64,000 nt of DNA, from positions 1-64,000 of the forward strand of contig NZ_JASJEB010000017.1 of the NCBI RefSeq assembly GCF_030064895.1. Reading direction: 5' to 3'. Shown here one piece after another: positions 1,341-50,895 of this stretch. The notes below the pieces were generated by a model. The model was not told the origin of the DNA. It searched no databases and saw only the letters and a program-made list of their open reading frames with translations. Positions within the stretch are counted from its first letter, which is position 1; each line of letters starts with the position of its first letter. The translations under genes were made by a program, and so were the position numbers. The stretch is from Crocosphaera sp. Lineage in GTDB: Bacteria; Cyanobacteriota; Cyanobacteriia; Cyanobacteriales; Microcystaceae.

Positions 1341-1711
1341 TTTAAATTGCTCCTATTATATGAAGTAGACAGCTAGTTTATGACAGGCTAATTAATGTTA
1401 ATAATGTCGTAGTTACGGAATAAATCCCTAATAGATTTATGTCCATTAATCAAAGTGATAGTTAGGAAACAAATTACTTAATACATCGTATCTATGTTAT
1501 TGATTATAAATTTTAATATTTTTTTAATCTTCATCCGAAAGGATTATCTTCATGGGTGATTGAGACATAATTTCTGTTTGTCAGACTTCTTGCAAAAATG
1601 TTTCGTGGTACAATTAAAGGCTCCTCTTTTATTCGATGAAATCGAGGGTCTTCAATAGGACATTTTATGATATGATGAAAGCTTGGATAAATTAATGGGC
1701 AATGATTAAAC

Positions 1712-2428
1712 ATGAAACAAGCATTAGTAATCAGACATTTAATGTTTGAAGACCTAGGTTCATTAGCTCCTGCGCTACAAGCTAAAGATTATGAGATAAC
1801 TTACCTAGAAGCGGGATTTGATGATTTAAGTGCTATTGATGCCCTCGAATCAGAATTAGTTATTATTCTTGGTGGGCCAATTGGGGCTTATGATGATCAA
1901 GATTATCCATTCATTAAAGATGAATTGTCCCTCTTAAAAGAACGCTTAGATAGGGATTTACCCACCTTAGGAATTTGTCTTGGGGCTCAACTGATGGCAA
2001 GAGCATTAGGGGCAAAAGTCTACCCAGGTAATCAAAAGGAAATTGGTTGGTTTTCCATTAGACTTAGTGAAGCTGGAAAAGCCTCTGCATTAAAACATTT
2101 AGTTGAAGCAGGAGATATGGTTCTCCACTGGCATGGAGATACCTTTGATATACCGGAGGGTGCTGTTCACCTAGCGTCTAGCGAAAAATATGCCAATCAG
2201 GCTTTTAGTTGGGGTCAGTGTGGATTAGCCTTACAATTTCATCCAGAAGTAACCAAACAAGGACTAGGGCGTTGGTTTATTGGTCATGCTTGTGAAATTG
2301 GTCATGCCCCAGAGGTAACTGTGGCCAAGCTAAGGGAAAATACAGAAAAATATGCTGATTCTTTAGAAGTCAAAGGAAAAAAAATGTGGCAAGGATGGAT
2401 AAAACAAATTGAAGGTAGAAGTCATTGA
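1712..2428 (+). CDS. Class I glutamine amidotransferase (GMP synthase-like)
   Basis: This 238-residue protein is a stand-alone class I GATase domain. The nucleophile elbow is LGICLGAQL (C89) and the His/Glu pair is in FHPEV (H177, E179); an early GGP motif helps form the oxyanion hole. Such proteins hydrolyse glutamine or gamma-glutamyl compounds in the cytoplasm; the acceptor cannot be read from the sequence. No partner synthetase is adjacent. The start at 1712 overlaps by one base a short antisense frame that I regard as spurious. The catalytic triad is complete, so it is likely active. Confidence 0.85.
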   Translation: MKQALVIRHLMFEDLGSLAPALQAKDYEITYLEAGFDDLSAIDALESELVIILGGPIGAYDDQDYPFIKDELSLLKERLDRDLPTLGICLGAQLMARALGAKVYPGNQKEIGWFSIRLSEAGKASALKHLVEAGDMVLHWHGDTFDIPEGAVHLASSEKYANQAFSWGQCGLALQFHPEVTKQGLGRWFIGHACEIGHAPEVTVAKLRENTEKYADSLEVKGKKMWQGWIKQIEGRSH

Positions 2429-2531
2429 TATCGACTTACCAGAATGCAAAGAAGTGACAAAATTATTGGCAGAAGTTCCCACCTATAAATTCTCAAAAAA
2501 TATCCATATTTTAGCTTAATCGGCGAGAAAC

Positions 2532-2574
2532 CCCACACTTTGTTTTCGATAAAAAATAATTAAACAAGTGTGGG
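2532..2574. other. Imperfect hairpin downstream of the amidotransferase
   Basis: CCCACACTT near 2532 pairs with AAGTGTGGG ending at 2574, and the stem extends through TGTTT/AAACA with one bulged base. It lies between convergent genes (the amidotransferase and the methyltransferase) and may end transcription, though no long T-run follows. Confidence 0.35.
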
Positions 2575-2707
2575 ATTAATCGCCAGTGATGCTACAATAC
2601 CTTCAAGTGGGACTGGGCGTGTACCTCACTATAAAACGCCGTAGTGGGAAAGAAGGAGTACCACAATGGAAGTTCAAGAAGGATAATTTCCGCTTGAGGC
2701 CTACACT

Positions 2708-3685
2708 CTACGAATGTGAGTGTATGGAGCGTCGCGATGGTTTTGTGGCGACAATGGTACGATGACGATGATCACTAGGGAAGGTAGTTTGATAATCAAA
2801 TCCTAATTCTTGTAAGGTTTGTTCTACATTAAAAGTATAGTAATCATCGCTGTGGGGTTCGGTACTTTTCATTAACATAAATAAGGCCGGTGGTAAGTTT
2901 TGAATTACCTCTGAACGGGGGTTATTATCAACAATACCAAGAACACCTCCAGGGCGTAAAATGCGAAAAACTTCCTTAAAAATAGCGGTTGCAGCATCAC
3001 GGGGTAATTCGTGGAGAACAAACTGAATAGTAATTACATCAAAAGAATTATCATCAAAATTTGTTTTCTCTGCTAAACCATGTATCCATTGACTGATTTC
3101 TTGTTCTTCATCGGTAACTTTAGCTACTGCTAACATATAAGGGGATAAGTCAAGTCCGATGGTGTTGATTGGTAAATTGTTTTGTCGTTGGCTATAATAA
3201 CGGTGGGTTGCTTTGGTGGAAACGCCTATAGAACAGCCAATATCAAGGATGTTTTCAACTTGAGGAGGGCTATAAGGTTCCAAAACAGCATGAAAAGCTG
3301 CTCTTAACCTGTCTTGTGCTTCTTGCCAAGTTAAGTCTTCATTCTTCCAGACTCGCAGGCCAAGAGACTGGGTTGCAGGAACGGCTTCAAAGGCAGCTTT
3401 CCAGCATAAATTCCCTTGATCATAAGCATGAAAAGGAACTAGATAATAGTCGGGATAAACCACGTCAGGGTTAGTGATTTGGGATAATAAGCTTTTAGCA
3501 GGGGATTTTTCTAAGGTTTTACAGTTTTGTTCCCACGCAATGCCGTTTTTCTCTGCTGTTTTAATGATAACTTGTCTCGCTTGATGGGTCATGAGGCGAT
3601 AAATGGGCTTTGTTTGTATCATTAAATTAACAAAGCGTGAGAGAAGATCGTCACCTGTCCAGTCAGGTTTAACTTTATTCACCAT
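2708..3685 (-). CDS. Class I SAM-dependent methyltransferase
   Basis: The 325-residue protein carries a Rossmann methyltransferase core. Motif I ILDIGCSIGVS lies at about residues 146-156, an acidic strand end (IGLDLS) follows, then SFDVITIQFVLHEL and a post-motif RILRPGGVLGIVD. About 140 residues precede the fold, longer than a minimal methyltransferase and possibly substrate-binding. The substrate is unknown; the DNNP loop and layout resemble small-molecule or lipid methylases of the UbiE/Methyltransf_11 type. It is convergent with the amidotransferase and has no operon partner. ATG at 3685. Confidence 0.82.
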   Translation of the reverse strand: MVNKVKPDWTGDDLLSRFVNLMIQTKPIYRLMTHQARQVIIKTAEKNGIAWEQNCKTLEKSPAKSLLSQITNPDVVYPDYYLVPFHAYDQGNLCWKAAFEAVPATQSLGLRVWKNEDLTWQEAQDRLRAAFHAVLEPYSPPQVENILDIGCSIGVSTKATHRYYSQRQNNLPINTIGLDLSPYMLAVAKVTDEEQEISQWIHGLAEKTNFDDNSFDVITIQFVLHELPRDAATAIFKEVFRILRPGGVLGIVDNNPRSEVIQNLPPALFMLMKSTEPHSDDYYTFNVEQTLQELGFDYQTTFPSDHRHRTIVATKPSRRSIHSHS

Positions 3686-49360: not shown

Positions 49361-49933
49361 ATGGCTGTTGTTGAGACTGTACCCAGTGTTGTCTTTAAAA
49401 CCCGTGTCCGTGATGAGTCTGTTGCCGGTCCCAACCCTTATCGTTGGCAAGATGTAACCACCGAAGAAATTTTCAAAGGGAAAAAAGTGATTGTTTTTTC
49501 CTTACCTGGTGCCTTTACTCCCACTTGTTCCTCTAACCACTTACCTCGCTACGAAGAGTTATACGAAGAATTCAAAGGTTTAGGAGTTGACCAAATCATT
49601 TGTGTGTCAGTGAATGATGCTTTTGTGATGTTCCAATGGGGTAAACAACAAGAAGCCAAAAACGTCTTCTTATTACCCGATGGAAACGGCGAATTCAGCC
49701 GTAAAATGGGTATGTTAGTAGAGAAATCTAACCTCGGTTTTGGTATGCGTTCTTGGCGTTACTCTATGTTAGTCAACGACTGCAAGATCGAGAAAATGTT
49801 TGTTGAAGCTGACTTCAGCGATAACTGTCCTACTGACCCCTTTGAAGTATCCGACGCTGACACCATGTTAGCTTACCTCAAAGGAACAGAGTCTGCCGGT
49901 GTTTCTGAACCCCGCAAAGCTTTTGTTGGTTAA
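49361..49933 (+). CDS. Type II (Prx5-like) peroxiredoxin
   Basis: The 190-residue peroxiredoxin reduces H2O2 and alkyl hydroperoxides with thioredoxin or glutaredoxin as donor. The peroxidatic site is [20 protein letters not shown], with the Cys in PTCS. The length, WRYSMLV strand and lack of a second conserved resolving Cys near the C-terminus fit the PrxII/Prx5 group (homologue of Synechocystis sll1621). It is divergent from perR and followed by a very strong terminator. GAGGTG is its ribosome site. Confidence 0.92.
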
Positions 49934-49949
49934 TTTTTAACAAATTGAC

Positions 49950-49995
49950 AATCTTCCGTTATAATCACAAATTATAACGGAAGATTCTTTTTTTT
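49950..49995 (+). terminator. Rho-independent terminator of the peroxiredoxin gene
   Basis: AATCTTCCGTTATAAT pairs perfectly with ATTATAACGGAAGATT around CACAA (16-bp stem), followed by CTTTTTTTT. It lies 17 bp after the stop codon. Confidence 0.93.
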
Positions 49996-50137
49996 ACTCC
50001 TCTTAGCTAGCCGATATCACCTTGAATTCCCCCCTGATTAAGGGGGGTTAAAATTGTTGGTAATATTTTTAGCGGGGGACTTCTGCCAACATTCTGTTAA
50101 AAAACCATAAATCAGATATTCTAAGTAACAATGATCT

Positions 50138-50499
50138 TAATCTAACTGAGTTCGTTCACCAACCCTGCACTTTTAGGGTAGGGATTGCCTAGACCAATCT
50201 AAGTGACGTAAGAGGTGAATACCGCATTGAGACACAGCTTGGTACACACTTCCGAATGCTTCCCTAGTTCGGACCATCTGTAAACCTAATTGGTGAGGTG
50301 CTATTAGACAGGACATCTTAGTTGTGTTGCGGGAGGGGACTTTAAACGAGTTTGCGGGTCTCGGCCTTATAGGTTTTTCAAAACTCGCTTCCCGTAAGGG
50401 AACTGTAAAGCCGTCCTGGAAGCGGTCGGATGAGGCGGAATTTACTTCCGCATCTCAGACTGACCAAGAGAGGACGGGGTTTCAAACCCAAAATTTCTG
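50138..50499 (+). ncRNA. Orphan HEARO/IscB omega RNA-like element
   Basis: This GC-richer, non-coding 345-bp block begins at GTTCACCAACCC (50154). It shows hairpins CCCTGCAC/GGGTAGGG, CGAGTTT/AAACTCG and GCGGAA/TTCCGC, and a last GGGTTT/AAACCC. The start, the AAGTGACGTAAGAGGTGAAT segment and the overall size fit my memory of HEARO RNAs, now known as IscB omega RNAs. Such elements sit before ATGA or GTGA; here ATGA follows at once and is the DUF3110 start codon. The roughly 16 bases before 50154 would be the guide. No iscB gene adjoins. A covariance search with the Rfam HEARO model would decide it. Confidence 0.68.
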
Positions 50500-50895
50500 A
50501 TGAGTGAAATTTACGTACTACTCTTTAACGCCCGAACCGAAAACGAAGGCATTCATACGGTGCAAATGGGCGATCGCAATAAAATTTTGATGTTCGAGTC
50601 AGAGGACGATGCCACTCGCTATGCCTTACTACTCGAAGCACAAGACTTTCCCACCCCCACTGTTGAACGCTTTGACTCAGGGGAAATTGAGGAATTTTGT
50701 CGTCAAGCAGACTATGACTGGGAACTAATCGCTGCTGGTGAGTTAGCCATTCCTCCGGAGCAAAACGTCGAGGAGATAACCTGGGGAGAAGAAGAAGAAG
50801 AACCCCCAAAAGCGACAGAAAGCGAGCCAACAGACTCGGGAATGTCCTCAGAAGAATTAGAACAAATGCGTCGTAAATTAGAAGGCTTACTATAA
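50500..50895 (+). CDS. DUF3110 domain protein
   Basis: The 131-residue protein has the cyanobacterial/plant DUF3110 domain at about residues 1-85: YVLLFNARTENEGIHTVQ, then the MFESEDDATRYALLLEAQDFP core. An acidic, Pro/Glu-rich tail follows. Function is unknown. The start codon ATG 50500 lies directly at the 3' end of the HEARO-like RNA, so that RNA would be part of its leader if transcribed together. murQ follows 5 bp after the stop, suggesting one transcript. Confidence 0.85.
   Translation: MSEIYVLLFNARTENEGIHTVQMGDRNKILMFESEDDATRYALLLEAQDFPTPTVERFDSGEIEEFCRQADYDWELIAAGELAIPPEQNVEEITWGEEEEEPPKATESEPTDSGMSSEELEQMRRKLEGLL

Follow-up and report, generated by a model that had tools for sequence, protein, structure and literature searches.

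What is a 345-bp non-coding block doing directly in front of a cyanobacterial start codon: is it a guide RNA, a mobile element or simply the leader of its host gene? The block occupies positions 50155-50499 of the window (i.e. the whole stretch of 64,000 nucleotides analysed here, from a Crocosphaera genome assembly of 5.5 Mb in 188 contigs). It lies downstream of a peroxiredoxin-like gene (named from its sequence, with no family search), and its right edge abuts the ATGA start of a DUF3110 gene. The original prediction described it as a single orphan HEARO/IscB omegaRNA inserted at that start codon, with a guide ending at 50153 and no nuclease gene behind it, which might either act with an IscB encoded elsewhere or have been co-opted as a 5' UTR. 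The data below are best explained if the block belongs to an IsrB-omegaRNA transposon family of the IS200/IS605 type, as a stand-alone member that is not autonomous.

Anatomy and affiliation of the element

The non-coding block and its junction with the start codon at 50500 are present as predicted (Table 1). The ORF list of the window holds no nuclease ORF within the element or directly 3' of it, again in agreement with the prediction; an isrB ORF is absent from 50155-50499, so this is not a nickase-autonomous IsrB element. The left edge moves by one base: TTCACC is common to the compared copies from 50155 onward and the preceding base is variable, so the guide would end at 50154 instead of 50153. 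The leader remnant in front of the element would be the guide if the transcript began upstream. Further upstream, a perfect-looking long terminator hairpin (49950-49986), which contains a promoter-like match, is found 3' of the peroxiredoxin-like gene.

Table 1. Features of the element and its flanks, in window positions.
Feature	Position	Strand	Remarks
Remnant of the host leader, adjoining the element on its 5' side	50137..50154	+	sequence differs between copies; only partly homologous to the DUF3110 leader of relatives
omegaRNA core, putatively of IsrB type	50155..50346	+	HEARO RF02033 positions 1-211, 40.3 bits; alignment A3
First stem of the omegaRNA core	50155-50160 pairs with 50214-50219	+	
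3' hairpin of the stand-alone family	50354..50388; outer stem 50354-50359 with 50383-50388	+	
Right end: terminal hairpin, then AT-rich tail	50404..50499	+	~92% identity to right-end-only copy L008
ATGA: motif adjoining the insertion, also the first four bases of the DUF3110 gene	50500..50503	+	copies stop directly before ATGA
DUF3110 gene, 131 aa	50500..50895	+	Pfam PF11360, E 2e-41

The full length of the Rfam HEARO model (RF02033) can be aligned to the element, with 40.3 bits (E 8.1e-7). This is below the curated gathering cut-off of 83 bits, and the element is therefore not a member of RF02033 by that threshold; across the whole window, no match to any Rfam family attains gathering level. 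Genome-wide, the model matches at six places. Two matches exceed the cut-off (119 and 116 bits), both beside iscB genes with HNH motifs (contigs C70 and C159), and three stand-alone copies are matched at 34-40 bits, none reaching it. A weak HEARO-like match of another type (31 bits) occurs at locus L014 on contig C24 (32580-32706).

RRXRR proteins are encoded at five places in the same genome. One of them, on contig C137, is an intact isrB ORF of 381 aa preceded by an RNA that can be aligned with the element. Its protein matches DtIsrB (PDB 8dmb) over nearly the whole length (E 6e-51), and Pfam finds RRXRR without HNH in it, as opposed to RRXRR plus HNH in the C70 protein. The closest protein-linked relatives of the element precede isrB, not iscB, and among named isrB loci the nearest are from Crocosphaera. 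The element also has the sequence and fold that are common to RNAs directly 5' of isrB. Given a DtIsrB-like protein without HNH and an RNA that aligns with the element, the element appears to be a divergent IsrB-type omegaRNA. The predicted omegaRNA type is thus upheld by the full-length alignment, while its assignment to HEARO and IscB is not. At least one intact candidate partner gene does exist elsewhere in the genome, as anticipated, but it is isrB; pairing with IscB was considered and rejected, as both iscB loci (C70 and C159) bear a different, high-scoring HEARO RNA. The stand-alone and C137 omegaRNAs are only ~71% identical (over 141 bases), and the match between this RNA and the C137 IsrB is accordingly assumed.

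Comparison with known systems places the element among related forms. It shares with IsrB-omegaRNA (DtIsrB) an omegaRNA of the kind found 5' of the ORF, a flank-derived guide, an NTGA-type motif after the right end and a putative RuvC-only partner, but differs in having no isrB in the element, an extra 3' hairpin and many copies at start codons. HEARO elements reportedly insert 5' of ATGA/GTGA, an observation attributed to Weinberg in 2009. With HEARO/IscB the element shares this insertion before ATGA and the end-to-end alignment of the model; it differs in score and in its linked relatives, which lack HNH.

Fold and distribution of the stand-alone copies

Folded as a single sequence, the element does not stand out from shuffled versions (z -1.47, equalled by 9 of 100), so support for its structure is comparative. 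Alignment A3, which combines 21 stand-alone and 8 isrB-type copies (29 sequences), has 45 pairs, 32 of them with changes on both sides, and 97.4% of its cells are paired, a value reached by none of 500 shuffles. When the partners are slid by 1-3 columns, at most 48.2% of cells pair. RNAalifold applied to 22 stand-alone copies alone gives 57 pairs, 20 with compensatory changes.

The 3' hairpin is common to the stand-alone copies and sits where isrB-bearing elements pass into the ORF. It covaries: at its six stem positions, 125 of 126 cells are paired in 21 stand-alone copies (L088, with a deleted arm, is left out of this count), and the pairing observed among its 8 distinct arm pairs is reached by 2 of 2000 shuffles. 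The common fold of copies from several genera, together with a covarying 3' hairpin of their own, indicates that the stand-alone form is a separate RNA lineage and not a fresh deletion in this genome. A group I intron or IStron was also considered and rejected: the covariance search of 49900-50560 yielded no intron family, even with E values of up to 10 admitted.

The element is far from a single orphan, contrary to the original prediction. The genome holds seven near-full copies (including that of the window), which end at ATGA, and one copy that consists of the right end only, so a dispersed stand-alone family takes the orphan's place. Standalone omegaRNAs that function with IscB are said to have been described originally by Altae-Tran in 2021. 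They are mentioned in PMC9581776, and they resemble the present copies in that no nuclease gene lies beside the omegaRNA and in their possible trans action; the present copies differ in being putatively of IsrB type, in forming a mobile family, in having their own 3' hairpin and in lying at gene starts. In the open-licence literature, as judged by title and the start of the abstract, we found no description of residence at start codons, of IsrB RNAs that stand alone, or of a family of the latter with a separate 3' hairpin at gene starts. Standalone omegaRNAs with IscB are already in print.

Insertion sites and mobility

ATGAGT is conserved at DUF3110 in the 9 other loci compared. The element is absent directly before this gene in 8/8 congeneric genomes, and also before the second copy of DUF3110 in this genome; in genome G003, an isrB element lies ~120 bp further upstream. 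Six of the nine comparison loci share the block AAATCAGATATTCTAA(G/A)TAACAAT(G/A)ATCT with the window, and the leaders of these relatives are ~36 bases longer (including GAGGAG) before ATGAGT. A shared block with the ~36 leader bases missing from the window suggests insertion plus loss of leader bases, perhaps by deletion between short TTCA repeats. At DUF3110, the left junction has changed, and the present guide of the window differs from the empty-site sequence before the ATGA of relatives. This leader loss explains why the predicted empty site, a simple junction of 50153 with 50500, was not found at DUF3110. Immediately after the second DUF3110 gene itself (locus L009, contig C70, 1109-1495) comes an iscB element (1501-3070) whose HEARO RNA scores high and whose right end appears to be AAAG|ATGG.

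A clean empty site is found at dxs instead. In this genome, a copy is inserted between ...AAACCATT and ATGAATTT. Of the 8 congeners compared, 6 have a dxs match and 2 have none; in 5 of the 6, ...AACCATT is joined directly to ATGAATTT. The junction lies at the start codon, and no base is duplicated or lost relative to the empty site. Insertion at dxs has thus taken place 5' of ATGA and left the target sequence unchanged. In the remaining case, genome G007, a remnant copy has lost the 5' part of its omegaRNA and keeps its right end beside the start codon. A fixed short adjoining motif without target duplication, as seen in the dxs sites and in the ends before ATGA, is characteristic of the IS200/IS605 type.

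Mobility of a related element has been seen in the laboratory. According to PMC11237433, an isrB-like gene of Microcystis entered gene gp49 of phage Mic1 together with 207 bp of its upstream and 59 bp of its downstream sequence, at an ATGA inside the coding region. The Microcystis-group element L085 of the present comparison has a downstream part equal to these 59 bp and an upstream part of ~215 bp.

The genome has 15 Y1_Tnp matches, some of them fragments, and none is linked to the element. At three loci (L008, L032 and L075), a divergent tnpB-like frame lies beside a sequence equal to the right end of the element (50404-50499). This suggests that one transposase may serve both tnpB elements and IsrB-omegaRNA elements. 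IS200/IS605 miniature elements are likewise short and non-autonomous, produce no target duplication and share an end with tnpB-linked copies; the present element differs from them in carrying a conserved guide-RNA scaffold.

Alternatively, the block could be an inert miniature element whose omegaRNA is just an end kept by descent and has no guide function, with mobility provided in trans by a transposase. Such inertness would fit (i) two genomes that have stand-alone copies and in which no RRXRR protein was detected, G053 (listed as 100% complete) and G008 (91%); (ii) the G007 dxs copy, which retains its right end after losing the omegaRNA 5' part; and (iii) the guide of the window, which has no clear target. 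A genome search with 14 guide bases plus NTGA gave no clear second site: allowing up to 3 mismatches, the pattern occurs at 23 places (13 for the reversed pattern), and the best place besides the locus itself has 2 mismatches and no NTGA. However, compensatory changes preserve the omegaRNA fold in stand-alone copies of several genera and the stand-alone-specific 3' hairpin covaries; neither is expected of dead ends, although transposition could itself require structure. We therefore consider an inert element unlikely.

Start codons, host promoters and guides

Residence at start codons was scored by asking if an open frame of 80 codons or more begins with the ATGA that follows the right end. 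An automatic right-end search missed 28 of 44 loci, so ends were anchored by eye and then re-measured by script. Of 55 loci, 12 were left uncounted (8 right-end-only copies, L008 and L070-L076, and 4 unreadable ones, L016, L020, L066 and L080). Stand-alone copies have a start codon at the right end in 18/26 distinct sites, or 19/27 if L056, a possible ortholog of L002, is included; the 27 contain L062, an isrB element with an internal deletion, and L088, which ends in ATAA. For isrB-type loci of the same genomes the count is 11/12 (16 loci less 4 orthologs, with the truncated isrB of L049 among those kept). Among 78 named isrB loci, the end could be assigned in 64 (51 ATGA, 3 ATGG and 10 TTGA); after 3 of the 51 had been dropped as already in the first set, 28/48 of the ATGA type have a start codon at the right end. 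The ATGG type has one in 2/3 and the TTGA type in 0/10, the latter being expected anyway since TTG is a rare start. Many of the TTGA-ending isrB elements belong to Xenococcaceae and Pleurocapsa (L157, L161, L163, L167-L169, L171, L172, L174 and L175).

For comparison, 20/120 non-coding ATGA sites of the window begin such a frame and 19/120 are starts by the gene caller, null rates that come from one 64-kb window and a simple gene caller and are set against right ends picked by eye. Relative to all non-coding ATGA sites, start codons are strongly enriched at the right ends, with p 4e-9 in the stand-alone set and p 3e-8 and 8e-11 in the two sets of isrB loci, and Fisher tests of each set against the null give p 2e-7 to 3e-7. 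When the null is limited to sense sites within 100, 50 and 30 nt of a gene, 35, 53 and 79% are expected at starts; p then becomes 0.0003, 0.068 and 0.92 for the stand-alone set and 2e-9, 0.008 and 1.0 for all 86 sites pooled. Under the 50-nt null, the stand-alone, same-genome isrB and named isrB sets give 0.068, 0.0055 and 0.27. Since the excess shrinks as the null narrows, survival in short sense leaders can explain most of the start-codon bias, with a small remainder.

The strong enrichment over all non-coding ATGA sites could also arise if the transposase or the IsrB-omegaRNA complex preferred start-codon DNA, i.e. from a bias of insertion instead of survival. Two different elements do sit at the same ATGA of homologous mycosin-like protease genes, a stand-alone copy here (L002) and an isrB-bearing one in another Crocosphaera (L124), as repeated choice of a site would produce. 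However, the excess is weak against the 50-nt sense null and vanishes against the 30-nt one, and the sole laboratory insertion, that in phage Mic1 (PMC11237433), lies inside a coding region, which agrees with survival. We regard active choice as improbable.

The element usually stands immediately in front of a gene and has the same orientation. The genes concerned include, by NCBIfam matches above cut-off (10 such genes scanned), dxs, F0F1 ATP synthase subunit A, magnesium chelatase ChlI, RNase III, GatA, LeuB and RlpA. A co-opted cis-regulatory 5' leader of the host gene, which would suit the sense orientation between promoter region and ORF and the G007 right end that stays at the start codon after loss of the left part, can hardly be reconciled with the lack of a common function among these genes or with the absence of the element at DUF3110 in all 8 congeners and at dxs in 5/6; the suggested co-opted 5' UTR, taken as a conserved leader of DUF3110, is rejected with it.

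The explanation that we consider moderately probable as a whole is a non-autonomous IsrB-omegaRNA element that inserts before ATGA, persists between host promoter and ORF and works with a trans-acting IsrB. A Y1 transposase supplied in trans would move the element. The host gene's own promoter would then yield an RNA with the host leader (the guide) at its 5' end, followed by the omegaRNA; IsrB encoded elsewhere would bind this RNA and nick guide-matched NTGA sites, e.g. a freshly emptied site; and such nicking would favour the return or keeping of the element. In PMC9581776, NTGA is the target-adjacent motif reported for DtIsrB. As the guide of an omegaRNA comes from DNA 5' of the element, the promoter must also lie outside. 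The promoter scan found none directly upstream of the element and a strong match only at 49937-49965, in the terminator-like stem of the upstream gene; the conserved block upstream of DUF3110 may hold the promoter. ATGA would fix the strand, so that an element next to a start codon shares the orientation of the gene and lies downstream of its promoter, and host transcription would provide guide and scaffold while the ORF remains whole. Placement at start codons would then follow from the sense orientation set by ATGA, the promoter needed just upstream and the loss of gene-breaking insertions.

More tentatively, the copies may form a widespread cyanobacterial stand-alone IsrB omegaRNA family with gene starts as its niche, in which housekeeping leaders (among those observed, dxs, atpB, chlI, gatA, rnc and leuB) become host-transcribed guides for one trans-acting IsrB, whose guide supply would then be coupled to the expression of host genes. 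Since NTGA-type recognition contains the start codon plus A, each insertion would make the 5' leader of a gene into a guide.

OMEGA systems are ancestors of Cas9, and their persistence in nature is largely inferred. An element that takes both promoter and guide from outside faces a supply problem, which residence between a host promoter and a start codon would solve; this idea can be tested in culturable cyanobacteria. The Rfam HEARO cut-off misses such leaders: in this genome, two iscB-linked copies reach it and no stand-alone copy does. Essential-gene mRNAs in these bacteria may therefore have a 300-nt omegaRNA leader, and ordinary gene leaders may at the same time serve as guide RNAs of a transposon.
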